A stretch of 64,000 bases of DNA from Fibrobacter intestinalis (GTDB taxonomy: Bacteria > Fibrobacterota > Fibrobacteria > Fibrobacterales > Fibrobacteraceae), in assembly GCF_900167415.1 (NCBI RefSeq), contig NZ_FUWU01000010.1, forward strand, positions 1 through 64,000, read 5' to 3'. Within the stretch, counting starts at the first letter, position 1, and every line of letters begins with the position of its first letter. The notes beneath the pieces are model-generated. The model saw nothing but the letters and a program-made list of their open reading frames with translations, searched no databases and was not told the origin of the DNA. A program made the translations under genes and the position numbers. Shown here piece after piece: positions 16,063-35,041 of the stretch.

Positions 16063-16218
16063 GCCCATCCTAAAACCCGATTTGACCGATAAGCGGTAAA
16101 AAAACGGCAGCGACTATCGGCTTATTTCGCAGGCATCATCTTGTCGTTGCGAAGCAGCGAGCGCAGAACCTGACTTGCGCCTATCGCCCGCTTTCTCCAA
16201 AGTCTAGAAAGGGAATCA
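16063..16218. repeat. Left 156-bp direct repeat flanking the R-M island
   Basis: Identical over all 156 positions, by eye, to 25509-25664. It carries the last ~32 codons, stop and ~59 bp of downstream flank of the sulfatase gene, here detached from the rest of the gene. Sequences diverge immediately outside both ends. It marks one boundary of the inserted cluster. Confidence 0.95.
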
Positions 16219-16351: not shown

Positions 16352-17983
16352 ATGGCAAAGGCAAAAAAATCGGAAATCGAAACGCTCAACTTGGATTCGC
16401 TTCTTTTTAAGTGCCGAGACATTCTTCGGCAGGCGCGGAATTCCGGCTCGTTCTTTGAAAAGCGCGACATGATGCTCACGCTCGTCTTCCTGCGCTTTAT
16501 CGGCGAAAAATACGAGGACGGAATCGAAAAACTCCGCGCGGACATTGCGGCGCAGGGTTTGAATCCCGACGACCTGGAAATTCAAAGGGCGTTCTTTGAG
16601 GACGCAACGTTTACGGACGGAACCTACAATCTTGAGAGCGATGCGTGCTGGTCAACAATCATCAACACGCCCGCGCCCAAACTGAACGTCGCGCTCGACA
16701 CCGCGCTCCACAGCATCGCGTCGCATTCCGCCGCGCTCAAAGGCTGCTTTGTGGAAGGCACGTTCACCCAGCGCAATCTCGGCGCGAACGACATCAAAAA
16801 AATCGTGGACGAAGTGAACAAAATTAGCCACAAGACGTTCGGGCAGGAAAAGGATTTGATTGGGCGCGTGTATGAATATTTTCTGAAGGAATTCGCCGTG
16901 AACGCCACAAAGGAAGAGGGCGAATTCTACACGCCGCATGATGTCGTCCAGCTGATTGCCGCAATGATTGAGCCGTTCGACGGAACGCTCTACGACCCGT
17001 GCTGCGGCTCCGGCGGAATGTTCATCCAGAGCGCCGCGCTCGTCAAAGCCCGGCAAGGCGACATCAGCGCAGTCAACGTGTTCGGGCAGGAAAAGGAGGC
17101 GGCGACGTGGCGGCTTGCCAAGATGAATCTCGCGCTCCGGGGAATCAGCCATCACTTGGGTGAAACAAGCGACTCCACTTTTTTGAACGACCAGCACCGC
17201 GGAATCTACTTTGACTACATTATGGCAAATCCGCCGTTCAACCTGAAAGGCTGGTGGAACGAAAACTTGCGGAGCGACCCGCGCTGGGCGGATTATCCTG
17301 TGCCGCCGGAAAGCAACGCAAACTACGCGTGGATTCTGCACATCCTTTCGCACCTCAAAAAGCAGTCGGGCGTGGCGGGATTCCTTTTGGCGAACGGCGC
17401 GCTCGGCGACGGCGACGCGTTTGAAATCAGAAAGAAACTCATTCAGAATGACAAAATTGAAGCAATCATCGTTTTGCCGCGCGAACTTTTTATCACCACC
17501 GACATCAGCGTTACGCTCTGGATTTTGAACGCGAACAAAACAGGCGGCGCATACCACAAACGCACGCTTCGGAACCGCACCGGCGAGATTCTCTTTATGG
17601 ACTTGCGCACTTGGCAGGAAAATCCAGTCAAAAACGAAAACAAAAAGAAAGTGCTTTTGTCGCCGGAGCAGATTCAAAAGGCGGCGGACATTTACCACAC
17701 GTGGCAGAACGAAGGCACGGACGGCGCGCACTACGAAGTGCCGGAACTTTACCGCAGCGTAAAACTTTCTGAAATCGAAGAGAAAAACTTTTCGCTCGTC
17801 CCGTCAAAATACATCGAGTTCATCGACCACGACTTGGAGATTGATTTTCCGGCGGAAATGAAACGCATTCAATCTGAAATGACCGCACTCCTTGCGCGTG
17901 AGGAAAAAAGCCGCGCGCTTCTAAAAGACGCGTTCGCAGGAATCGGCTACGGGATTGACGGCACAGACGGAGGCGAATCATGA
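16352..17983 (+). CDS. hsdM: Type I restriction-modification DNA methyltransferase subunit
   Basis: N6-adenine methyltransferase subunit that modifies the site chosen by HsdS. The 543-residue protein has the HsdM N-terminal helical domain (SLLFKCRDILRQARNSGSFF), then FYTPHDVVQLIAAMIEP. The AdoMet motif DPCCGSGGMF is near residue 215 and the catalytic NPPF at about residues 293-296 (ANPPFNLKGWW). The length is normal. The 130 bp before it (16219-16351) are very AT-rich and must hold the island promoter. Its stop overlaps the next gene's start by 4 nt. Confidence 0.96.
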   Translation: MAKAKKSEIETLNLDSLLFKCRDILRQARNSGSFFEKRDMMLTLVFLRFIGEKYEDGIEKLRADIAAQGLNPDDLEIQRAFFEDATFTDGTYNLESDACWSTIINTPAPKLNVALDTALHSIASHSAALKGCFVEGTFTQRNLGANDIKKIVDEVNKISHKTFGQEKDLIGRVYEYFLKEFAVNATKEEGEFYTPHDVVQLIAAMIEPFDGTLYDPCCGSGGMFIQSAALVKARQGDISAVNVFGQEKEAATWRLAKMNLALRGISHHLGETSDSTFLNDQHRGIYFDYIMANPPFNLKGWWNENLRSDPRWADYPVPPESNANYAWILHILSHLKKQSGVAGFLLANGALGDGDAFEIRKKLIQNDKIEAIIVLPRELFITTDISVTLWILNANKTGGAYHKRTLRNRTGEILFMDLRTWQENPVKNENKKKVLLSPEQIQKAADIYHTWQNEGTDGAHYEVPELYRSVKLSEIEEKNFSLVPSKYIEFIDHDLEIDFPAEMKRIQSEMTALLAREEKSRALLKDAFAGIGYGIDGTDGGES

Positions 17984-19027
17984 CAGAAAACAACACGAAC
18001 CTCATCATGTATACAACGCAGGACGGCGTTACAAAAATTCAGGCGACGTTTGACAACGACACTGTTTGGCTGAGCCTTGACCAGATGGCGCAGTTGTTTC
18101 AGCGCGACAAATCTACGATTTCACGGCACATCAAAAACGTGTTCGATGAGGGCGAACTTGAGAAAAATCGAGTTGTTGCAAATTTTGCAACAACTGCCGC
18201 CGACGGAAAAAACTATCAGGTTGATTATTACAATCTCGACGTTATCATTTCCGTAGGCTACCGCGTGAAATCTTTGCGCGGAACACAGTTCAGAATCTGG
18301 GCGATGAATATTCTGAAAGAATATATGCAGAAAGGATTCGCCCTTGACGACGAACGCTTAAAGGAACTTGGCGGCGGAAATTATTTCGATGAGCTTCTGG
18401 CACGAATCCGCGACATTCGCTCAAGCGAAAAAGTATTCTGGCGCAAAGTCCTTGAGATTTATTCGACAAGCATCGATTACGACCCGTGCGCCGAAAGTTC
18501 CGTCAGATTTTTCAAGGAAGTGCAGAACAAAATGCACTGGGCGGCGCATAAGCACACCGCTGCGGAAATCATCTACGACCGGGCGGACGCGCAGAAACAG
18601 AACATGGGGCTTACAAGCTGGAGCGGCAGGCAGATAAAAAAGTCAGACGTGGAAATCGCAAAAAATTACCGTTTCCGAAACGGAACTTGACGCGCTGAAC
18701 AAGATTGTCGCCGCTTACCTCGACATTGCGGAAGTCCGCGCCCTAAACCATGAGCCGATGTATATGAAAGACTGGCTCGAAACAATCGACGATTATCTGA
18801 AAATGACGCGCCGCGAAATCCTCACGGCTGCCGGACGTATTTCCCACGAGAAAGCAATCGAAAAGGCGCATTCCGAATACGAAAAATACAAGGCAATCCA
18901 GCCGGAAACATTGTCCGCCGTGGAAACGCATTTTTTGAGCAACATAAGCGAACTGGAACACCGAGAGGAAAATGCGGTGAAGCGGAGAAACGGAGAAACG
19001 GAGACAAATCATGACAGAAGAAAATAA
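17980..19027 (+). pseudogene. Frameshifted RhuM-family gene
   Basis: RhuM-type protein (named for a Salmonella gene; frequent in type I R-M operons; role unsettled). The first frame gives 236 residues, including WLSLDQMAQLFQRDKSTISRHIKNVF, NLDVIISVGYRVKS and QFRIWAMNILKEYM. It stops at 18690 just after KKSDVEIAKNY. The family then continues in another frame from TVSETELDALNKIV to the stop at 19027. Comparison with the intact paralogue (DVTVAKNYLDEKQ) suggests that about 5 nt are missing near 18670. It overlaps hsdM by 4 nt and hsdS by 17 nt. A -1 slip at the A-rich run would not give the needed frame, so this looks like a real mutation. Confidence 0.85.
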
Positions 19028-20162
19028 AACATACCGCTTGGGAGAATTGATAGAACTCTGCGACGAACGCAACACCGCCGGAAAATACACGCTTGCCGAC
19101 GTGAAGGGAATTTCCACAGAAAAAACTTTTATTGACACGAAAGCGAATATGGACGGCGTTCCTCTTAATTCATATAAAATTATAAAGCCAGATGAATTTG
19201 CGTATGTTGCTGACACTTCCCGGCGTGGCGATAAAATTGCCCTCGCTTATAATGACGAAGAAAAAAACGTGCTTGTTTCCTCAATATATACTGTGTTCCG
19301 CGTGAGCCGCCCGAATGAAATCGATTCCGACTATCTTTTCATGTTCTTCAACCGCCCGGAGTTTGACCGCTATGCCCGCTTCAATTCGTGGGGAAGCGCG
19401 CGCGAAACATTTTCATGGGAAGATTTTTGCGACACGCCGATTACCCTTCCGCCGCTTGCCGCGCAGAAAAACGCCGTCGCTGTATACCGCGCGCTCAAAG
19501 AAAACCTCGCCGCTTACGAGCACGGCTTGCAGGACTTGAAACTCGTCTGCGACGGATTCATCGACCGGATAAAAAACGGCAGCCCGGAAATCAAAGACGT
19601 TGCTCACTTTTGCCTCGGCGACCTTGTGGAAGAAGTGGACGAACAGAACACCGCCGGGAAATACACACTTTCCGACGTGAAAGGAATTTCCACAGAAAAA
19701 AAATTCATCGAAACAAAAGCCGATATGAACGGAGTTTCATTGCAGTCTTATAAAATCGTAAAGTCCGATGAATTTGCGTATGTTGCCGACACTTCCCGGC
19801 GCGGTGATAAAATCGCCCTTGCTTACAATGACGGCGGCAATTCGCTGTTGATTTCATCGATTTACACGACATTCCGCGTAAGCCGCCCTGATGTGATTCT
19901 TTCGGAATATCTTTCGCTGTTTTTCAACCGCGCGGAATTCGACCGCTACGCGCGCTACTGCTCGTGGGGCTCGGCGCGTGAAACATTCGACTGGAATGAG
20001 ATGTGCGATGTGCAAATCCCCGTGCCGCCGCTTGACGTTCAGCAAAACATCGTGAACATCTACAAATGCTACATCGAACGCCAGCGCATTGCCGCCGCGC
20101 TCAAAGCACAAATCAAAGCCGCCTGCCCGGTTCTCGTCAAAGGCAGCTTGGAGTGGGAATAA
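19011..20162 (+). CDS. hsdS: Type I R-M specificity subunit with two near-identical target-recognition domains
   Basis: DNA-recognition subunit that directs the HsdM/HsdR complex. The 383-residue protein has two target-recognition domains (about residues 7-147 and 201-341). They are homologous along their full length, roughly three quarters identical by eye. Both contain GKYTLxDVKGISTEKxFI, EFAYVADTSRRGDKIALAYN and SWGSARETF. Helical spacers follow each (starting AAQKNAVAVYRAL and DVQQNIVNIYKCY). Most HsdS proteins have two different recognition domains; equal ones imply a bipartite target with inverted-repeat halves. It starts inside the end of the broken rhuM. Confidence 0.92.
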   Translation: MTEENKTYRLGELIELCDERNTAGKYTLADVKGISTEKTFIDTKANMDGVPLNSYKIIKPDEFAYVADTSRRGDKIALAYNDEEKNVLVSSIYTVFRVSRPNEIDSDYLFMFFNRPEFDRYARFNSWGSARETFSWEDFCDTPITLPPLAAQKNAVAVYRALKENLAAYEHGLQDLKLVCDGFIDRIKNGSPEIKDVAHFCLGDLVEEVDEQNTAGKYTLSDVKGISTEKKFIETKADMNGVSLQSYKIVKSDEFAYVADTSRRGDKIALAYNDGGNSLLISSIYTTFRVSRPDVILSEYLSLFFNRAEFDRYARYCSWGSARETFDWNEMCDVQIPVPPLDVQQNIVNIYKCYIERQRIAAALKAQIKAACPVLVKGSLEWE

Positions 20163-20184
20163 TTTTTTATAGGAGATAAGAAAG

Positions 20185-21096
20185 ATGAGTATAGAAAAAA
20201 TTCTGAAAAAAGTGATTTTAATTGTTAGTTGTTTATTTCTAATCCTTAGTGTAGTGCTTTTCTTTGTATTCCTATTTAATAGGAATTATTTCAATTCAAG
20301 TTTTCAACTTGATGTTGATTTGGCGGAGAAATTTGGAGCATTTTTCTCTGGATTGGTTGGCACTTCTGCTACGATAGCAGGTTCTTTGTTGGTTGTATTG
20401 GTATTTTTGTATCAAAATCAACAATTTAGAGTTTCCAAAATTGAAAATACATTTTATAAAATGGTCGATTATCATAGAGAAAATTTGAGAAACATGGAAT
20501 TTTCAACAAAAAATGAAACCTTTTCTGGGCAAAAAGCCTTTGTCAACTTCAAATTATATTTGTTCAAATGTCAAAATCTTGTTAAGCAGGCAAACCAAAA
20601 ACTAACTAATCAAGAAAGTGATAATCAAGGGCTGCCCAAAGAAGAAATATTGGACTTGAGTTTTATGATATTTTTCTTTGGAATTGATTTAAAATGGAAA
20701 TCGTTTTCTGACGAACTTTTGGCAAAATATAAAAAATATCCGCATCTATTAGATGAACTGTATAGACTTGCCCAGAAAGATTTTAATTTACCAAATCAAA
20801 CTGCATTAAGCACCTATTTTAGAAATTTATATAATGCTATATCCTTGATTGACGGTAATAATGATTTATCGCAAAAAGAAAAATACAATTATATAAAATC
20901 ATTGCGGGCGCAATTATCAAACAATGAACTTTGCCTTTTGTATTTCGACATTATGTCGCGTTATGGAACAAAGTGGAGGAAAAAACACCTTGTTGAAAAA
21001 TATAAATTCTTAAAAAATCTTCCTCCTAAATTTTGTAATGGATTTGAGCCAAAAGATGATTTTAAGTTGGAATATGAAAGTGAGGAATACAACTAA
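20185..21096 (+). CDS. Putative AbiC-like phage abortive-infection membrane protein
   Basis: The 303-residue protein has two N-terminal membrane helices (about residues 9-32 and 50-75), then a soluble helical domain. The segment FFSGLVGTSATIAGSLLVVL followed by YQNQQF, then YFRNLYNAISLID and KYNYIKSLRAQLSNNELCLL, match my recollection of the putative abortive-infection (AbiC/putAbiC) family. Members are thought to stop phage spread by harming the infected cell. AGGAGATAAG lies before the ATG. Its AT-rich codon use contrasts sharply with the R-M genes on both sides, suggesting a separate origin. It is 22 nt after hsdS and 30 nt before rhuM. Confidence 0.72.
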   Translation: MSIEKILKKVILIVSCLFLILSVVLFFVFLFNRNYFNSSFQLDVDLAEKFGAFFSGLVGTSATIAGSLLVVLVFLYQNQQFRVSKIENTFYKMVDYHRENLRNMEFSTKNETFSGQKAFVNFKLYLFKCQNLVKQANQKLTNQESDNQGLPKEEILDLSFMIFFFGIDLKWKSFSDELLAKYKKYPHLLDELYRLAQKDFNLPNQTALSTYFRNLYNAISLIDGNNDLSQKEKYNYIKSLRAQLSNNELCLLYFDIMSRYGTKWRKKHLVEKYKFLKNLPPKFCNGFEPKDDFKLEYESEEYN

Positions 21097-21126
21097 AGAA
21101 AAATTCGTTTAATAAGGAGGTACGCC

Positions 21127-22167
21127 ATGCACGACAAACCACAGGCAGCGCCGCTCAAGCAATTCAATTTTCTTCTCTACAAATCCGCGCAGGAAGAAGT
21201 GAGCGTGAATGCGCTTCTCAAGGACGACACCATCTGGCTTACGCAAAAGGCAATGGCGCAGCTGTTCGGCGTAGACAGAACGTCTATTGGAAAACATTTG
21301 AAAAACATTTTTGAAAGCGGCGAACTGGATGAAAAAGTGGTATGTGAAAAAATTGCACTACCCACTCAACACGGCGCAATAGAGGGGAAAATTCAAATTA
21401 ACGATGTTACTTTGTACAACCTCGACGCAATCATTTCCGTGGGCTACCGCGTGAACAGCCGCCGTGCGACGGCATTCCGAATCTGGGCGACGGGCGTTCT
21501 GCGCGAATACATCACCAAAGGTTTTGTGCTGGACGATGAGCGGCTCAAGCAGGGACAGAGTGCGTTCGGCAAGGATTATTTCCGCGAGCTTTTGGAGCGC
21601 ATCCGTTCCATCCGCGCAAGCGAGCGGCGAATCTGGCAGCAGATTACCGATATTTTTGCCGAATGCTCAATCGACTACGACAAGAACGCGCGGACGACCC
21701 ACGACTTTTATGCGATGGTCCAGAACAAATTCCACTATGCCATCACCGGAAGCACCGCCACAGAAATCATCTACAACTCCGCTGACAGGAACAAGGAGCA
21801 CATGGGGCTTGCCACGTGGAAGAACGCGCCGGACGGACGGATTTTGAAATCCGATGTTACGGTCGCCAAAAACTACCTCGATGAAAAGCAAATCCGCCGA
21901 CTGGAACGCGCGGTGACAGGATTTTTTGACTACATCGAAGACTTGATTGAGAATGAGACCGCGTTCACGATGGAGGAATTCGCCGAAAGCGTGAATGCGT
22001 TCCTGGAATTCCGCAGGTTCAAGATTCTTGACGGCAAGGGAAAAATCTCGAAGGAAGCCGCCGACAAGAAGGCGGAGGAAGAATATGCCGAATTCAACAA
22101 GCACCAGAAAATCACGAGCGACTTTGACAAGGCGGTAAAGAAAATGCTTGAAGAAAAAAAACGATAA
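21127..22167 (+). CDS. RhuM-family protein (intact)
   Basis: The 346-residue protein is a full-length relative of the broken gene at 17980-19027. It has an N-terminal winged-helix-like region (IWLTQKAMAQLFGVDRTSIG), a conserved core (NLDAIISVGYRVNSRRATAF, WATGVLREYI, RIRSIRASERRIWQQ), GSTATEIIYNSADR and KSDVTVAKNYLDEKQIRRLE, and a charged helical tail. These genes often sit inside type I R-M operons. DNA binding is inferred from the N-terminus; the exact role is unknown. AGGAGG precedes the ATG, and hsdR follows 11 nt later. Confidence 0.85.
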   Translation: MHDKPQAAPLKQFNFLLYKSAQEEVSVNALLKDDTIWLTQKAMAQLFGVDRTSIGKHLKNIFESGELDEKVVCEKIALPTQHGAIEGKIQINDVTLYNLDAIISVGYRVNSRRATAFRIWATGVLREYITKGFVLDDERLKQGQSAFGKDYFRELLERIRSIRASERRIWQQITDIFAECSIDYDKNARTTHDFYAMVQNKFHYAITGSTATEIIYNSADRNKEHMGLATWKNAPDGRILKSDVTVAKNYLDEKQIRRLERAVTGFFDYIEDLIENETAFTMEEFAESVNAFLEFRRFKILDGKGKISKEAADKKAEEEYAEFNKHQKITSDFDKAVKKMLEEKKR

Positions 22168-22178
22168 GGACGGAATCT

Positions 22179-25100
22179 ATGCAGAAACCGAACAACCACC
22201 ACGGTCGCTTTTGCGAGTCCGATTTTGAGGCCGCATTCATTTCTTTTTTGGAACGCGCGGGCTGGACGTATTGCGCCGGGAACGACATTGCGCGTGAAAG
22301 TCCGCGGGACGTGCTTGCGCTCGGCGACTTGGCTGATTTTCTCTTGCGGACGAGCCCGGATCTTTCGGCGGAGGAAATTGGCGCGCTGTGCGACACGGTG
22401 CGGCTTGCCGGCGCGGAAAGCGACTTTGCGGTGCTGCACAAAGTGTATGGCTGGATGGTGAACGGCATCCAGTTCACGCCGAAAAACGGACGTGCAAAAA
22501 TGATTTCGCTCATCGACTTTGAAACGCCTGAAAACAACACGTTCTGCGTGACAAATCAGTTTTCCGTGGACTATGTGAACAACGGCCAGACAAAAACGCG
22601 CCGTCCCGACATTCTGCTTTTTGTGAACGGGCTTCCGCTGTGCATTTTGGAACTGAAAAATCCCGCCGATGCGAACGCGACAATCCACGACGCGTGGGAG
22701 CAGATTTATTTCCGTTACTGGCGCGACATTCCGCACCTGCTGCATTTTTGCCCGCTCGCCTGCATTTCCGACGGAGCAAAGACGCGGCTTGGAACGGTGC
22801 GCACGCCCTACGAGCATTTTTACGCATGGCGGCGCGTAAACGACGGCGACAAGATTTCCACCTCGCCTTTTGACGAAGTGCAGACGATGGTGGACGGCGT
22901 GTATGCGCCCGCGCGATTCCTTGAGATTTTCCGCGACTACATTTATTTTCAGGACTCCGAATACGACCGCGACGAGTTTGAAATCGTGTGCCGCTACCCG
23001 CAGTTTTTTGCCGCGCGTCTTTTGAAAAAGAGCATCATCAAATCGGTGCATGAAAAGTCCGGCAAGGGCGGAACGTATTTCGGTGCGACCGGCTGCGGAA
23101 AAACATACACGATGGCATTTTTGGCGCGGCAGCTTTCGCTCCGTTGCGCAGAGCAAATCGGTTCGCCCACGGTCATCATGATTGTGGACCGCGACGACTT
23201 GCAGAAGCAGGGCGCACAGCTTTTTACCAAAAGCATGGAATTTTTAGGTCTTGGAGAAGTGCGCGTGGTGCCGACGCGGAACATTCTGCGTGAGGAACTG
23301 GGCGCACGGCAAAGCGGCGGTTTTTATATCTGCACGATTCAAAAATTCTGCGACCGCACCGACGACCCCATCGGGCTTATCAACGACCGCGCGAACATCA
23401 TCTGTTTTTCCGACGAGGCGCACCGCACCCAGCTTGAAAACGCAAAGCGCATCAAGTTTTCAGGCGACAACAGCGAGAACATGAAGGCGCTTCTTTCAAA
23501 GCCCTATGCCGCAGTTTTGCGCGACGCGCTTCCGCACGCGACATTCGTCGGCTTTACCGGCACGCCGATTGCGGAAACCTACCAGACGTTCGGCGAGGAA
23601 ATCGACCGCTACACGATGGACCAGGCGGTTGCGGACGGGCTGACCGTTCCCATCAAATATCATCCGCGCATTGCAAAAGTCCTGCTCGACACGGAAAAAG
23701 TCCGCCTCATTGAGCAGTATTACGGAAAGTGCGCCGAGGACGGTTCCACAAAAGAGGACATTGAGGCAAGCAAAAAAGCGATGAGTTCCATGGAAGTGAT
23801 TTTGGGCGAACGCTCGCGCCTTGAGCGGCTCGCCGTTGACATCCACGACCACTTCACCGCCGCGTGTGAAAACGACCCGGAGCGCGTCCAAAAAGCGATG
23901 GTTGTTTCTTCCAAGCGCGAGACGGCGTTCGACCTTCTGTGCATTTTCCGTGAGAAATATCCTGAATGGTTCGAGGAGAAAAAGATTCCCGACGGCGTTC
24001 AGGCAACGGACGAGGAGCTGAAAAAACTTCCGCGCGTGCCTGCAATCGCGATGGTGGCAAGCGTGGGCAAAAACGACCGGGCGGAAATGTATGAATATCT
24101 GGGCGGTGTAAAGAACGATTCGCGCTCCGACAAACTGGCGGCGGCGTTCAAAATGGAAAAATCGAACTTCCGAATCGTCATTGTCGTGGATATGTGGATT
24201 ACCGGATTCGATGTGCCGTGCCTCACGTTCCTTTACAACGACAAGCCACTTCAAAAGCACACGCTCATCCAGACAATCAGCCGCGTGAACCGCAAGTTTC
24301 TCGGAAAGGACTACGGCTTTATCATCGATTACATCGGAATCCGCGACAATATGCGCGAGGCGATGAAAATTTACGGCGGCGGAAATTCGATTGCGCCCAC
24401 CGAAGACGACGTGGCACAGGCGACGGAAGTGTTTCGCGAGGAGCTTTCGATTCTCATCGACTTGTTTGAAGGATTCGACCTTGCGCCGTTCTTGAATCCT
24501 GACGCAGACCCGGCGGAACGCTATTCGCTTTTGTGCAGTGCGGCAGAATTCGTATTCAATTCGATTTCCGTGCTGAACGCAAAGCGGAACGGCGGAAAGG
24601 ACATCGCGAAAGTTTCGTTCAAAACGTATTTTTTGGAAACGGTGAAGCGGATGCGGCTTGCCTACGATGTCTGCCAGCCGTCCGGCGGCTTGGGCGAAGA
24701 AGAAAATGCGCTTGCCCAGTGCTTTATGGCAATCGCGGGATTTGTGCGCAAGCGCAGCGGAACCGATGCGCCCGACACCGACGTGATGAACCGCGCTGTT
24801 TCAAAAATGGTGGAGGAGGCGCTCAAATACAGCAAGGTGGAAAGCGTCCTTGAAAACGGCGAAGCGGAAGACTTGTTCAGCCCGGAATTCATCGAGCGGC
24901 TTTCCGACATAAAAATGCCCGCCACAAAACTGGAGCTGCTCGTAAAACTTCTGCGCCGCCAGATTGCCGAATACAAAAAGACGAATCTTGCCGCCGCAAA
25001 AAAATACCAGGAAATGCTTGAGCAAACAATCACCCTGTATCACGAGCGGCGCAAGCATTTGAGCGAGGAAGAAGCCGGCACAACGCAGGAAGAGGCTTCC

Positions 25101-25502
25101 GAAGAAATCATTCGGAACGCGACAAAACAGGCGCTACGGATTCTAAGCGAATTGCAGGAAGACCGCGAGAGTTTCCGCAAGATGGGACTGACGTTCGAGG
25201 AAAAGGCGTTCTATGATATTCTGATTGATTTGCGCAACGAGCACGACTTTGAATACGGCACAGACGAGATTTGCGACGGCATTCTCGTGAACAAAAAGTG
25301 CCTCGCGCTCGCCAAAAAAGTGAAGGAAATCATCGATGCAAAATCCTCGTTCGCCGACTGGCTCAACAACCAGAACGTCCGCGACCAGCTCAAATTCGAC
25401 ATCAAAATCTGCCTCGTAAAAAACGGCTACCCGCCAAAATACAGCCCGGAAGTCTTCCGCCAAATGATGGAGCAGGTGGAGAATTTCAAGGAGAACGAGT
25501 GA
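22179..25502 (+). CDS. hsdR: Type I restriction-modification endonuclease/translocase subunit
   Basis: ATP-driven DNA translocase and nuclease of the type I complex. The 1107-residue protein has an N-terminal PD-(D/E)XK nuclease with RRPDILLFVNGLPLCILELK (residues ~144-163). SF2 helicase domains follow, with Walker A FGATGCGKTYTM (about residue 302), the SDEAHR box (about residue 412) and FVGFTGTPI. A C-terminal helical region should bind HsdM/HsdS. All key motifs look intact. The stop lies 6 nt before the right 156-bp repeat. Confidence 0.96.
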   Translation: MQKPNNHHGRFCESDFEAAFISFLERAGWTYCAGNDIARESPRDVLALGDLADFLLRTSPDLSAEEIGALCDTVRLAGAESDFAVLHKVYGWMVNGIQFTPKNGRAKMISLIDFETPENNTFCVTNQFSVDYVNNGQTKTRRPDILLFVNGLPLCILELKNPADANATIHDAWEQIYFRYWRDIPHLLHFCPLACISDGAKTRLGTVRTPYEHFYAWRRVNDGDKISTSPFDEVQTMVDGVYAPARFLEIFRDYIYFQDSEYDRDEFEIVCRYPQFFAARLLKKSIIKSVHEKSGKGGTYFGATGCGKTYTMAFLARQLSLRCAEQIGSPTVIMIVDRDDLQKQGAQLFTKSMEFLGLGEVRVVPTRNILREELGARQSGGFYICTIQKFCDRTDDPIGLINDRANIICFSDEAHRTQLENAKRIKFSGDNSENMKALLSKPYAAVLRDALPHATFVGFTGTPIAETYQTFGEEIDRYTMDQAVADGLTVPIKYHPRIAKVLLDTEKVRLIEQYYGKCAEDGSTKEDIEASKKAMSSMEVILGERSRLERLAVDIHDHFTAACENDPERVQKAMVVSSKRETAFDLLCIFREKYPEWFEEKKIPDGVQATDEELKKLPRVPAIAMVASVGKNDRAEMYEYLGGVKNDSRSDKLAAAFKMEKSNFRIVIVVDMWITGFDVPCLTFLYNDKPLQKHTLIQTISRVNRKFLGKDYGFIIDYIGIRDNMREAMKIYGGGNSIAPTEDDVAQATEVFREELSILIDLFEGFDLAPFLNPDADPAERYSLLCSAAEFVFNSISVLNAKRNGGKDIAKVSFKTYFLETVKRMRLAYDVCQPSGGLGEEENALAQCFMAIAGFVRKRSGTDAPDTDVMNRAVSKMVEEALKYSKVESVLENGEAEDLFSPEFIERLSDIKMPATKLELLVKLLRRQIAEYKKTNLAAAKKYQEMLEQTITLYHERRKHLSEEEAGTTQEEASEEIIRNATKQALRILSELQEDRESFRKMGLTFEEKAFYDILIDLRNEHDFEYGTDEICDGILVNKKCLALAKKVKEIIDAKSSFADWLNNQNVRDQLKFDIKICLVKNGYPPKYSPEVFRQMMEQVENFKENE

Positions 25503-25508
25503 TTGGTT

Positions 25509-25664
25509 GCCCATCCTAAAACCCGATTTGACCGATAAGCGGTAAAAAAACGGCAGCGACTATCGGCTTATTTCGCAGGCATCATCTTGTCGTTGCGAAG
25601 CAGCGAGCGCAGAACCTGACTTGCGCCTATCGCCCGCTTTCTCCAAAGTCTAGAAAGGGAATCA
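25509..25664. repeat. Right 156-bp direct repeat (native sulfatase 3' end)
   Basis: Perfect copy of 16063-16218. It spans the final codons of the sulfatase gene (stop at 25568-25570) and its 3' flank, including CCGATA (25532) pairing with TATCGG (25561) around a T7 run. This copy is continuous with the rest of the sulfatase gene and so represents the gene's own end. Confidence 0.95.
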
Positions 25665-28691: not shown

Positions 28692-28768
28692 ATTTTTGTT
28701 TTGACCGGCAAAGTCGTCAAAAATGAGGGAACAGTTGTAGCGGGATATGGAAAGAAAGACTTCGGCAT

Positions 28769-28940
28769 GATGCCGCGACCCATTTTTTGCTCGGGACGGC
28801 AAATGGCACGATGCCGCGACCCGTTTTTTGCTCGGGACGGCAAATGGCACGATGCCGCGACCCGTTTTTTGCTCGGGACGGCGAACGGCACGATGCCGCG
28901 ACCCGTTTTTTGCTCGGGACGGCAAATGGCACGATGCCGA
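28769..28940. repeat. 41-bp tandem repeat, four units
   Basis: Four head-to-tail units start at 28769, 28810, 28851 and 28892, plus an 8-bp remnant. The units differ at only a few positions. Each contains GCCGCGACCCG...CGGGACGGC, able to fold as a hairpin with a T-rich loop. It is intergenic, between the glycosyltransferase and an RNA-like element. The period is not a multiple of three, so a protein repeat is unlikely. Confidence 0.92.
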
Positions 28941-29341: not shown

Positions 29342-29581
29342 ATGGAAGATTTAGTTCTAACAATTCCGACCCAGGATTTGGGTATTATGGAAACTTTGGC
29401 GGCTCGCATGGGCTGGACTGTGCGGTCTAAACGGAGCATTGTCCAGAAATTTGTCGATTCTTGCCCCAAGACTCCGATGATGACTGACGAAGAAATCGCC
29501 GCTGAAGTCAACGCTGTTCGATACGGGAAGTCGTATAAAAGCCCAGATTGTTTTTATAACCCCCTTAAAACTTGCCTTTGA
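29342..29581 (+). CDS. Small antitoxin-like protein, apparently unpaired
   Basis: 79 residues: MEDLVLTIPTQDLGIMETLA, a central basic part (MGWTVRSKRSIVQKF) and TDEEIAAEVNAVRYGK. The layout resembles antitoxin components found before toxin genes in Bacteroidota and Fibrobacterota, but I cannot name a family. GAGG lies 6 nt before the ATG; an ATG four codons upstream (29330) is less likely. No toxin follows directly; the next promoter begins inside its last codons. The C-terminal residues (NPLKTCL) come from the repeated promoter module, so the gene may have been trimmed by insertion of the Phd/ParE module. Confidence 0.55.
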   Translation: MEDLVLTIPTQDLGIMETLAARMGWTVRSKRSIVQKFVDSCPKTPMMTDEEIAAEVNAVRYGKSYKSPDCFYNPLKTCL

Positions 29582-29600
29582 TAGGCGAAAAAGGTATATT
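29572..29600 (+). promoter_or_regulatory. Promoter of the Phd/ParE-type module
   Basis: TTGCCT (29572-29577), exactly 17 bp, then TATATT (29595-29600). The surrounding ~40 bp recur almost unchanged before the acetyltransferase gene (36117-36158), so the promoter travels as a module. Confidence 0.75.
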
Positions 29601-29628
29601 TAGGGAAGTTTATCGACAGGAGTCAATC

Positions 29629-29910
29629 ATGCTTGATGTGTGCGAATGCATAAAGCCCGATTCTTACGTCAGTTCCAACATCGACGATGTGATGAATTTT
29701 GTGAACGATCGCAGGGAACCGATGGTAATAACCCAGGATGGAAAATCTCGGGCGGTTCTTGTTGATGTCGAGACATACCAAGACATGAAGAAAGCCTTCG
29801 GCCTTCTAAAAATCATTCAACTTTCGGAAAAGGATGTCCAGGCAGGACGGACAGAACCGGCGACGATGGTTTTTCAGGATTTAAGGCGGAAGTACAATGT
29901 CGGAAAATGA
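29629..29910 (+). CDS. Phd/YefM-type antitoxin
   Basis: 93 residues. SSNIDDVMNFVNDRREPMVI and GKSRAVLVDVETYQDMKK are the Phd/YefM core that forms the DNA-binding dimer. The C-terminal ~35 residues would wrap the toxin. AGGAG lies 8 nt before the ATG at 29629; longer frames to 29572 overlap the promoter and are rejected. It overlaps the toxin gene by 14 nt, the usual translational coupling. The antitoxin normally represses the operon together with the toxin. Confidence 0.88.
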   Translation: MLDVCECIKPDSYVSSNIDDVMNFVNDRREPMVITQDGKSRAVLVDVETYQDMKKAFGLLKIIQLSEKDVQAGRTEPATMVFQDLRRKYNVGK

Positions 29911-30241
29911 TTTTTACAACGTTGTCGTTTCACAATTCGCAAAAGAAGATTTGAACGAAATCATTGCTTACTATGAGTCGTTAAACAAATCTTATGTTGA
30001 ATCTGTCATTACTCAATTTGAAGACAACATCCTCTCCTTGTCGCATTTTCCCGAAAGCGGAAGAATCGTTCCCGAATTATACAGACAAGGTATTGAACGG
30101 TATAGAGAAATCATTCAGGGTTTGTATCGTATTGTGTATGAAATTCGAGAAAAAGATGTCGTCATCCATACAATTATCGACAGCCGAAGAAATTTTGATG
30201 AAGTGTTAATCGCAAAGCTGATGCGATATATAAAGAAATAG
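29897..30241 (+). CDS. RelE/ParE-family toxin
   Basis: 114 residues with the RelE/ParE layout: an N-terminal strand (VVVSQFAKEDLNEIIAYYES), two helices, then FPESGRIVPE, YREIIQGLYRIVYEI and the terminal VVIHTIIDSRRNFD. RelE members cut mRNA on the ribosome and ParE members poison gyrase; sequence alone does not decide. FPESGR and YRIVYEI are more ParE-like. It follows the Phd antitoxin with a 14-nt overlap, and a terminator follows 7 nt after the stop. Confidence 0.88.
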   Translation: MSENDFYNVVVSQFAKEDLNEIIAYYESLNKSYVESVITQFEDNILSLSHFPESGRIVPELYRQGIERYREIIQGLYRIVYEIREKDVVIHTIIDSRRNFDEVLIAKLMRYIKK

Positions 30242-31760: not shown

Positions 31761-32303
31761 CTACTTCTTTGTCATTTGAGAAAAACATTTCTTCACCTCG
31801 CATTTTTTTATTGAAACCAATAAATTTCTGGCATCATCCCACAAAATGACATCAGGGACATTAATCAACGGATGCAATCGCCTCGCTCTCTTATTACCTT
31901 TTTTATCAAACCAACAATTAATAACTCCGCAGGCATTCTTCGGCTCACTAATCGACTTTACGTTCATAAGGTCTATTTCTGATTTCGAAGCGTACTTTTT
32001 CAAATAATGAACTAATATTTTTTCCGCTTTAGAAATTGCAGAGGCGTCTTTTTTCGCGCTATTACTCCATTTGATTTTTCCAATCCAAAACAAGCGATTC
32101 TTTTCTCGAATATGCGTATAAAATTTATGCGTGCTAGTAAATCTACCCTTGCAGTTCTTACTTGTTTTTCCAATATAACGAAGTTTTATACTTTCCTTGC
32201 CTGCTATTCGAGATCCTGTTATAAGATAAAGAATGTTTGCTTGATTTGTTTGATTAGGGTCTTCATAGGGACCGCTCCACTCAATTATAAATGTTGGAAT
32301 CAT
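31761..32303 (-). CDS. GIY-YIG-like nuclease-domain protein
   Basis: The 180-residue protein has ILYLITGSRI followed by LRYIGKTSKNCKGRF, matching the GIY-YIG pattern (first strand L-Y-x-I; second strand Y-I-G-K-T; then Arg). The downstream catalytic Glu could be the E of KAEKILVHYL. The C-terminal part (PLINVPDVILWDDARN) is not recognised. A GAGGAATT ribosome site overlaps the stop of the preceding gene, so it is the last gene of a four-gene minus-strand operon. GIY-YIG domains occur in repair, restriction and homing enzymes; the role here is open. Confidence 0.6.
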   Translation of the reverse strand: MIPTFIIEWSGPYEDPNQTNQANILYLITGSRIAGKESIKLRYIGKTSKNCKGRFTSTHKFYTHIREKNRLFWIGKIKWSNSAKKDASAISKAEKILVHYLKKYASKSEIDLMNVKSISEPKNACGVINCWFDKKGNKRARRLHPLINVPDVILWDDARNLLVSIKKCEVKKCFSQMTKK

Positions 32304-32309
32304 AATTCC

Positions 32310-34592
32310 TCATTTAATATTATTCCAATCCAAAATGTCAACAAGAAAAACCGGGATAAACGCTGAATATGTATATGTATGGGAAATCATGGGTTCAAGA
32401 AGAATATTCATTCCAACCTCATCTGCAACTGATTCACATTGCTTAGAGAACTTCTCATAAATTGCCGATTTGCCCCATTTATGCTTTTCATAACCGATGA
32501 TTTTCCTTGGCGGTGTAAATGTACATCCCCTTATTTTTACTTTGGAAACCTTTGTATTTCCCTTATCATCAACTCGCGGTTTATTTGCTTGTACCGACAT
32601 TTCCACTTCACCTACATTTGAATCCCAATACTTAATAATACCGTTTATTTCGCCTTGATTGTTTAAAGGAAGAGTTATTTTTCTGTTTTTAGAAACAGAA
32701 GAAACGGCTGTTATTTTCCCTTTAGTGAAGGAAATTTTTTCCTTTCCTTCTTCATCTAATAAAGAATTTGGACTTAAATGTTTTAATTTACGCGTATTTT
32801 TTCCTAAAAGATAAAACATATTTTGAACATCAAGCAATGTCATTTCCTTATCTTCATCATCTAAAAATTCAATTACATAGTTTTCATTGTTATAATTGAT
32901 CTCGATTAGATTATTCAATTTAAAATAACCCTTTTTCTTACCATTTTCATAAGATGAATTATAATTAAGTTTATATTCAACCGGATCAAATCCGTATTCA
33001 ATTCCCGATGATATCTTTTTATTTTTTATCGTCGCTTCCAGATTAACAACTGAAAAAATTTCTTCTACATCATAGTCTTCATCATATAACGGACGCTTTC
33101 TTTCTCCTGTATAACTGAATAAGGGATAATAACATGACAAGGATCCATTCTTTTCAGGAAGTTTACTTAAATCGTTCATCTCAACCGAATAACTATTAGA
33201 TGATGTTTTGAAATAGCAATTCGGCAAAATATCACGACCTTGATGATAGTTATAAGTCCAATTCTTATACAAAACAGCAACAGAGTCCATTATGGATTGA
33301 TATTTTTTAACACACTCATTCAATTTAACATCATCTTCTTTTTTATAAATCTCCTGATATTCCCTAATATTACGAATTATCTCTACAAGAGAATACCCAT
33401 TTTCATATTGTCTTTCTATCTTTTTTATGAAATCGGGAATCGGCAAAAAAAGTTCCTGCAATTTTCGTTCTGCATCTACTTTATGTTTTCCTGCAGGGAA
33501 ATCTTTTAGATAATTTCCGTAAAGTTCATAAATTCTTGCGGTCTCCCAATAGGAATTTTCTAAAGAATCTTGGAACAGCGAGTAATCCTTTTCTAATAAA
33601 GTTTTTTCATTACACACCTCTTTTAAATATGTTAATCCTTTTCTTACTGCATCACTACTCACGAAACCTTGCATTATCCCTTTACAATCGTTATGAATTT
33701 GCTTATGTATTTGAATTTCTTTATCTATCGTTGTAATCCATTTAGGTGATAATATTTTCATATCCTCTTTTAGTTTATTCAAGTACTTTATATACTCATC
33801 CAAACCAATATCAGTTATAGCATTGGTTGTTAAAATGAAATTTTTCTTTCGTACAGATCCTGTATAACAATCTGATTTTAGGTCGGATTCTTTTCCTATT
33901 TTTTTATGTTCTTTGTTTATTCGATTATATTCTGCATCTATTTTTTCCCCAAGTTTTTCAAAGTAGCTTCTTTTTTCTGAAAACATAAACGACCAAAATA
34001 GTTCTTTTTTTGACCATCCCTCAAATTGTTTACTTTGCTTTATTCCAAAAAGATTTTCTGCAACAAGTGATGGCTGACCTATTTTTTCACCGTCAATAAC
34101 CATTCTGTTGCGGGGAGCTGCAAAAAATGATCTAATCGCCTCATCTTGCCACGTGCTTATATCTACATTACTCTCACAGAAAAAAATAAAATCACGATAC
34201 TTGTCCCAAAAAAGCAATGCGGCAAACAATTCATTCAAATCATTTTTCACTATAGAAAAATCATCCTGTTCAAAGGCTGAATCTACACTAGATTGTAAAA
34301 ACATACAATAGTTCTTTTCATAATCTCTTATCGGATAGGTTGATTTATTTTCAACAAATTTATTATACCATTCTTTAAAATAATCTCCACGAATCTTTTG
34401 ATAGCCAAAAAAACACGCAGGAATTTTTTCGTAGGAATTATAAGAACTAGGTTCCCCGCAAGCTTTTTTACAATCGCCCCAACTTCCTGAATTTACAACA
34501 ATACTATCAGAATTAATTTTAAAACAATCGTCCTGTGCGGATAATACAAAAGACACACAAGACAATAGAATTAATAAAAAATGATTTTTCAT
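32310..34592 (-). CDS. Large secreted protein of unknown function
   Basis: About 760 residues with a clear Sec signal peptide (MKNHFLLILLSCVSFVLSAQ), start supported by AAGGAGG 8 nt upstream. A TTG six codons earlier is less likely. The body is Lys/Glu/Asn-rich and AT-rich, with long helical stretches (about residues 200-480). A more strand-like C-terminal part includes KITAVSSVSKNRKITLPLNN and AVSSVS-type beta segments, and VRGCTF is nearby. No recognised domain or catalytic motif. It lies between a 144-residue unknown gene (stop 15 nt upstream) and the GIY-YIG gene. Confidence 0.7.
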   Translation of the reverse strand: MKNHFLLILLSCVSFVLSAQDDCFKINSDSIVVNSGSWGDCKKACGEPSSYNSYEKIPACFFGYQKIRGDYFKEWYNKFVENKSTYPIRDYEKNYCMFLQSSVDSAFEQDDFSIVKNDLNELFAALLFWDKYRDFIFFCESNVDISTWQDEAIRSFFAAPRNRMVIDGEKIGQPSLVAENLFGIKQSKQFEGWSKKELFWSFMFSEKRSYFEKLGEKIDAEYNRINKEHKKIGKESDLKSDCYTGSVRKKNFILTTNAITDIGLDEYIKYLNKLKEDMKILSPKWITTIDKEIQIHKQIHNDCKGIMQGFVSSDAVRKGLTYLKEVCNEKTLLEKDYSLFQDSLENSYWETARIYELYGNYLKDFPAGKHKVDAERKLQELFLPIPDFIKKIERQYENGYSLVEIIRNIREYQEIYKKEDDVKLNECVKKYQSIMDSVAVLYKNWTYNYHQGRDILPNCYFKTSSNSYSVEMNDLSKLPEKNGSLSCYYPLFSYTGERKRPLYDEDYDVEEIFSVVNLEATIKNKKISSGIEYGFDPVEYKLNYNSSYENGKKKGYFKLNNLIEINYNNENYVIEFLDDEDKEMTLLDVQNMFYLLGKNTRKLKHLSPNSLLDEEGKEKISFTKGKITAVSSVSKNRKITLPLNNQGEINGIIKYWDSNVGEVEMSVQANKPRVDDKGNTKVSKVKIRGCTFTPPRKIIGYEKHKWGKSAIYEKFSKQCESVADEVGMNILLEPMISHTYTYSAFIPVFLVDILDWNNIK

Positions 34593-34606
34593 ACTAAAAG
34601 CCTCCT

Positions 34607-35041
34607 TCAAATTCTATTGTTAATCAACTGTAAAGAATCGTGGTTTATACATCCTTTCTCATCAAGAAACTCATCCCATGTGAGGAAATCAAAAACCTCG
34701 GCAAAAGCTTCCTTGAACGAATCGTCTATCTCGAATAATTTTTCATTTGATGTTACACAATTTAGCGAGCTATCTTCATTAATTCGCATAATTTGTATCC
34801 ACGAAAGATTGATATTTTGAGCAATTTCACGATCTCTATGTTTTACATCAGGTGCAATAAGACCATCTGCTTTTGTATGTACAATTAAAACAGGCGCAAC
34901 AGGAATTTCTCCACATACTGAATAAAAGCGCTTTAAATCAGGCTCAATTTTCAATTTTGAAACGTCCGTATTCCGTTGCCAAGATGTTAAGACGCGAATC
35001 GGCGTTTTTTCTGCAGAAGTGATGTAATCAAGAAAATTCAT
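34607..35041 (-). CDS. Hypothetical cytoplasmic protein
   Basis: 144 residues, acidic, no signal peptide: MNFLDYITSAEKTPIRVL, then a strand-rich centre (PVAPVLIVHTKADGLIAPDV; LSWIQIMRI) and an acidic end (DFLTWDEFLDEKGCINHD). AGAGGTACAAC lies before the ATG. The overall style recalls SMI1/KNR4-like or other immunity proteins, but no motif settles this. It is second in the operon, 30 nt after the FISUMP gene. Confidence 0.65.
   Translation of the reverse strand: MNFLDYITSAEKTPIRVLTSWQRNTDVSKLKIEPDLKRFYSVCGEIPVAPVLIVHTKADGLIAPDVKHRDREIAQNINLSWIQIMRINEDSSLNCVTSNEKLFEIDDSFKEAFAEVFDFLTWDEFLDEKGCINHDSLQLINNRI

Follow-up and report, generated by a model that had tools for sequence, protein, structure and literature searches.

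The lactococcal genes abiP and abiC are plasmid genes that lie outside R-M operons, and AbiP is a nucleic-acid-binding protein that blocks phage replication. Defence genes are also found inside type I R-M operons. In the EcoprrI operon of Escherichia coli, prrC is an embedded second-line defence gene, as described in the accessible portions of PMC12707154 and PMC3874165. Within the same limits, PMC12255303, PMC12707154, PMC3710099 and PMC3874165 place darTG2 between hsdS and hsdR, and prrC, HEPN, Fic and RhuM genes within R-M operons; the accessible text of PMC3710099 joins embedded HEPN, Fic/DOC and RhuM genes to the idea of a multi-level defence. Defence genes embedded in the hsdS-hsdR interval have been described before, and the AbiC-like gene reported here is a further member of that group. 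Our literature search, which reached few subscription papers, found neither AbiC in the hsdS-hsdR slot nor a measurement of slot turnover.

The window, a stretch of 64,000 nucleotides from Fibrobacter intestinalis, contains a complete type I R-M system with HsdM, HsdS and HsdR in one operon on the forward strand. The gene hsdM (16352-17983; N6_Mtase and HsdM_N in Pfam) is followed by rhuM1 in the hsdM-hsdS interval (17980-19027), which is frameshifted (17980-18690 and 18758-19027) through either real decay or a sequencing error. The two target-recognition halves of hsdS (19011-20162) are 69% identical (107/155), which suggests a near-palindromic target; one natural palindromic type I system is named in the accessible part of PMC3874165. 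The AbiC-like gene, abiC (20185-21096), stands between hsdS and an intact second RhuM gene, rhuM2 (21127-22167; Virulence_RhuM, PADLOC PDC-S05), and hsdR (22179-25502) closes the operon. The initial annotation had given abiC operon-like spacings and a ribosome site of its own, and both were confirmed: the spacer to hsdS measures 22 nt (20163-20184) and holds a Shine-Dalgarno-like AGGAG ahead of the abiC start, while that to rhuM2 measures 30 nt (21097-21126). We consider it probable that abiC encodes an intact, horizontally acquired, membrane-anchored putAbiC (AbiC/AbiP) abortive-infection protein, located in an exchangeable hsdS-hsdR cargo slot, in a type I R-M operon that has been transferred widely.

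With regard to the protein itself, the AbiC-like identity proposed at the outset holds. The ORF starts with ATG and encodes 303 residues, of which 204-283 match putAbiC (PF16872; E 1.8e-22, 80.1 bits against a cut-off of 22), the sole Pfam match at E <= 0.01; the AAA_13 ABC-type ATPase domain is absent. Pfam and the alignment of relatives indicate a full-length, intact putAbiC protein, the only one in this genome. Alignment with a 304-aa "putative phage abortive infection protein" carried on a plasmid of Bacteroides fragilis extends along almost the entire protein (37.5% identity over 88%). Hydropathy predicts two N-terminal transmembrane helices, at about residues 10-28 and 57-75, and the C-terminal domain is helical with a conserved YFR.LY ... 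LRAQLS..E core. In an alignment of 37 sequences, G51, F90, L240-L244 and E248 are invariant, and the protein deviates at two shared columns (A52, where 36/37 have D, and T210, where 31/37 have H). The PADLOC AbiP model (PDLC02351) was matched partially, at residues 209-272 (4.6e-8; best stretch 112-173 of 223 model positions), and the lactococcal AbiC model (PDLC02343) found no match at E <= 0.01; the latter is matched weakly by the relatives at L197, L195 and L201, and L197 matches the AbiP model as well. Two PHROGs were hit, phrog_8999 (3.6e-8) and phrog_16957 (0.0014), both annotated without function, and NCBIfam gave zero matches.

Two structure models (pLDDT 83.5 and 80.1) show a membrane hairpin and long helix together with a helical domain that contains the invariant LRAQLS..E core. 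The predicted helices 3-35 and 44-102 precede the C-terminal domain, an arrangement as in the relatives, and the models support the reading of a membrane-anchored effector. Foldseek against the PDB returned no fold match (best E 0.98 for the full model and 1.1 for the C-terminal model), and the best hit in a viral structure library had an E of 0.41. VIA-align gave at best Z 8.0 (rmsd 2.1 over 69 residues, two-helix hairpin only) and Z 6.8 (rmsd 3.4, 85 residues), values in the range which that tool terms common for helical models. A PDB profile match to sc-CC-6-95 (3.1e-4) was discarded as a coiled-coil match. The YFRNLY motif had been read by eye as that of a HEPN RNase; going by the motif spacing of those enzymes, the conserved histidine is missing where it would be expected, and this reading was dropped.

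Relatives of AbiC are scattered. Matches were found in 16/167 genomes of the phylum, including that of the window, and the nearest relative, on the B. fragilis plasmid, lies two genes away from integrases. An alignment-based search recovered relatives in 40 viral-contig loci, none of which contains a match to the hsdM, hsdS or hsdR profiles; the single AbiC-like protein, when searched against viral contigs, gave 0/14 confirmed stretches. At 3/16 other phylum sites (L200, L201 and L203), AbiC lies beside type I R-M genes of other systems, a few genes downstream of them. At L201 (8522-12648) the AbiC-like gene follows an RT_UG5-nitrilase defence gene by 11 nt, both after the hsdS of another type I operon, and these two genes may form a possible two-gene system. 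At L200 (7735-9797) and L203 (3600-6068), AbiC is preceded by an unannotated gene located after hsdS, and these two genes are related to each other (37% identity).

The AT-rich composition of abiC and a codon use unlike that of its neighbours, both pointed out in the initial annotation, were borne out. GC and GC3 are 0.292 and 0.267 for abiC, compared with 0.534 and 0.689 for hsdM, 0.493 and 0.577 for hsdS, 0.503 and 0.645 for rhuM2, and 0.538 and 0.682 for hsdR, so that GC is 0.29 against 0.49-0.54 in hsdM, hsdS and hsdR. When the codon use of each gene is correlated with that of the remaining operon, the coefficient is 0.018 for abiC and 0.84-0.95 for hsdM, hsdS, rhuM2 and hsdR. All 81 windows of 303 codons in hsdR stayed within 0.516-0.561 GC, and no other ORF of 120 aa or more in the window has a GC as low as that of abiC. 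Slot ORFs of related operons lie below their own hsdR in 40/43 cases (mean -0.090), but hsdS is lower as well (-0.065), and slot cargo is just 0.025 under hsdS (33/43 lower). The value for abiC, -0.246 relative to hsdR, is beyond all 43 slot ORFs (lowest -0.193), which supports abiC being compositionally foreign. A further AT-rich block without relation to the R-M operon (GC 0.31-0.35) is located at 31761-35041 of the window. Other features of the window include a 41-bp tandem repeat of 4.3 copies at 28764-28939, at the 5' end of a glycosyltransferase-like ORF, and two small ORFs at 29572-30241 which by eye resemble a Phd/RelE-type toxin-antitoxin pair.

The slot was compared across related operons. 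With HsdR as the query, GTDB genomes yielded 228 pattern matches, of which 204 were confirmed as relatives and the best 80 kept; 60 relatives of the window genome contributed four further loci (HsdR 70-73% identical). The resulting 84 operons, with HsdR at least 70% identical, come from many phyla. A slot was scored as filled when at least one non-hsd ORF of at least 70 aa lay between hsdS and hsdR. Among the 77 of these loci (best 80 of 204 plus four) with readable hsdS and hsdR, 35 were filled and 42 unfilled. The other seven (L051, L066, L069, L077, L093, L125 and L127) had an unrecognised HsdS; L077 went uncounted through the overlap filter on hsdS, and its hsdS appears in the flank comparison below. 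L088 was scored empty despite two antisense ORFs (519 and 264 aa) of insertion-sequence-like appearance in its operon. AbiC was found in 0/77 slots and, using the single sequence and the profile at E up to 10 on all ORFs, in 0/98 R-M loci (L032-L129). When 49 of the host genomes were searched whole, two had weak partial matches. The slot of the genus relative G003 (L032) is empty. The proposal of a slot with variable cargo is supported by these counts and by the varied contents described below; given the 0/98 loci and the empty slot in the genus relative, abiC is not a constant resident of matching composition at this position.

Pfam was run on thirty slot proteins; one came from the hsdM-hsdS gap, and the other 29 from the slot between hsdS and hsdR or an equivalent position. 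A match at E <= 0.01 was obtained for 24 of them, mostly defence-linked and in some cases under the curated cut-off. The contents comprise AbiJ_NTD3-kinase, AbiJ_NTD4, SMODS plus Cap15, CAP12-type TIR, Fic, Schlafen AlbA_2, KAP NTPase, AAA_13, AAA_21, OLD-TOPRIM plus UvrD (GajB by PADLOC), reverse transcriptase, YhcG nuclease, PDDEXK_3, metallo-beta-lactamase, MCU-like and DUF4062 proteins, as well as RhuM in L074. With 6/30 proteins lacking a Pfam match at this threshold, hsdS-hsdR slots are a good hunting ground for unrecognised defence genes. The proteins at L056 (8611-10023), L112 (2256-4007), L121 (9021-9911) and L052 (4943-5866) matched neither Pfam (E <= 0.01) nor PADLOC (E <= 1e-5), and that at L053 (1236-2666) had no PADLOC match at E <= 1e-5; all five are candidates for such genes, judged by sequence. 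A Hachiman HamA-like gene lies immediately 3' of hsdR at L109 (13299-14255).

The AAA_13 genes, which we take to be of PrrC/RloC type, fill the slot of L050, L114 and L108. They bear on a different account of abiC, in which the R-M enzyme would hold AbiC inactive or be sensed by it, and a phage antirestriction protein would fire AbiC, as in PrrC/EcoprrI. The position of abiC is that of an embedded gene such as prrC, and the presence of PrrC/RloC-type genes in the same slot fits as well. Nevertheless, AbiC relatives occur without R-M genes on the plasmid and in viral contigs, and the CBASS pair in the L128 slot and the Gabija pair in the L123 slot both appear to be complete autonomous systems that need no R-M guard, which leaves this account improbable.

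PADLOC models (E <= 1e-5) matched 13/20 random slot ORFs and 7/19 random operon-flank ORFs, an excess that is not significant (Fisher p 0.11). For one of the 13, the models hit were confined to type I specificity and related ones; among the seven flank matches, two were weak (2e-6 and 5e-6). The flank controls numbered 20 until L066, which is slot cargo, was removed. PADLOC PDC families may in part stem from embedding. The test is weak both ways because the flanks are rich in defence genes and these families are possibly embedding-derived. The matches in the flanks, the 42/77 empty slots among the best 80 of 204 plus four loci and the relatives of AbiC on mobile elements would all suit a chance passenger, namely a moron gene of a prophage or plasmid, tolerated in a permissive gap since hsdR expression continues. 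We regard this as rather unlikely: each of the 43 slot ORFs counted is read in the direction of the operon, sense ORFs occupy the hsdM-hsdS gap in only 7/70 loci with hsdM readable too, and abiC is intact and has a ribosome site of its own while the nearby rhuM1 is broken.

Turnover of the slot was assessed on an HsdR tree built with FastTree, using 1000 shuffles and slot-content labels assigned by hand. The filled or empty state changes 15 times over 78 tips (shuffled mean 26.0, minimum 18). Contents change 30 times over 36 filled tips (shuffled mean 31.8, minimum 29 of 1000); with 29 content labels spread over 36 tips, inheritance of contents would be hard to detect. The HsdR tree is tracked by the filled or empty state and not by slot contents. 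Among near-identical operons, clean insertions or swaps occur exactly at the slot. The Fic gene of L109 is an insertion at the final codons of hsdS, compared with L110 and L117, in which hsdS runs into hsdR and the flanks are 91-97% identical. L114 differs from L105 by an AAA_13 (PrrC/RloC-like) gene added between hsdS and a common Fic gene, the hsdR side being 95% identical; this geometry is that of abiC before rhuM2. Cargo also differs between L053 and L054 (hsdR 96% identical) and between L076 and L077 (92-97% identical outside the slot). Such pairs provide natural comparisons with and without a given gene. The slots of L076 and L077 keep RhuM-like remnants before hsdR, without AbiC (that of L076 was read by eye), and the window arrangement, in which AbiC separates hsdS from an intact RhuM gene, fits the stacking pattern of L114 and of L076/L077. 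Insertion of abiC is inferred from these parallels because no near-identical operon lacking abiC alone was found.

The same loci bear on whether abiC and rhuM2 are effector and partner in a single two-gene system instead of two cargo genes. The two genes are adjacent, 30 nt apart, but the slot of L074 holds a RhuM alone, 76% identical to rhuM2, the remnants of L076 and L077 stand without AbiC, and GC is 0.29 in abiC against 0.50 in rhuM2; we find this hardly credible. The observations support the cargo-slot idea: the hsdS-hsdR interval is variable and is either empty or holds another gene, most often a defence gene. A more far-reaching proposal, which we offer tentatively, is that of a dedicated exchange bay. 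The operon would be an inter-phylum carrier whose bay is kept open in some lineages, and unrelated second-line systems would be swapped by recombination via hsdS and the hsdR start, restriction thus being paired with a changing backup.

The whole operon is, by all appearances, a recent arrival, because it is flanked by a perfect repeat and genus relatives have an empty site. The two copies of the direct repeat (16063-16218 and 25509-25664) are identical at 156/156 bp; the right-hand copy takes in the 3'-terminal 97 bp of the 25568-27517 gene plus 59 bp beyond it. In G002 and G003 a single copy is present, and the joined flanks align without the insert. Both flanking genes are present in all six genus genomes, at a distance of 130 bp in G002, 144 bp in G003 and about 0.9 kb in G005 and G004, and on separate contigs in G001. 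A long direct repeat around the unit with one copy at the empty site is the pattern of target duplication, and the operon with its 156-bp repeats looks like an entry by long target duplication. An exact flanking repeat longer than 24 bp within 1.5 kb was found in 0/64 other loci with both flanks, and this mode of entry is therefore not seen family-wide. Elsewhere in the genome of the window, a remnant of an hsdR tail with an in-frame stop is present (G000:C78:21706-21888, L046; 75% identical).

On the reading that we prefer, in which abiC is acquired cargo of the slot, rhuM2 would be the older resident, abiC would have been inserted between it and hsdS, and abiC would be co-transcribed with the R-M genes. 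AbiC would act independently, as a second line of defence: once triggered by phage that have escaped restriction, the membrane-anchored protein would block phage replication or halt the cell, an action proposed by analogy with AbiP. These results add a membrane-anchored Abi protein to the genes known to be embedded between hsdS and hsdR. They also put numbers behind an idea earlier drawn from single examples, with fast turnover of contents and an inherited filled state.

Insertions of R-M units with long target duplication were reportedly described by Furuta in 2010, and the window operon resembles them in lying within a long perfect direct repeat while relatives have an empty site; it differs in being a type I operon with embedded cargo and in its repeat of 156 bp. 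With lactococcal AbiP/AbiC, the likeness consists in the match to the AbiP model, which is partial for the window protein, and in the relative L197, which matches both models. RhuM, Fic and PrrC-like genes, as treated in the accessible text of PMC3710099, also occur in the operons of this R-M family, whereas the word AbiC has no occurrence in that portion of the text. The darTG2 genes of the EPEC RRDM island share the hsdS-hsdR position of abiC, but they are a toxin-antitoxin pair under the RptR repressor and may belong to another R-M family than that of the window. In common with prrC of EcoprrI, abiC is embedded in a type I R-M operon; PrrC, in contrast, is an anticodon nuclease held by the R-M complex, and AbiC lacks such a domain.
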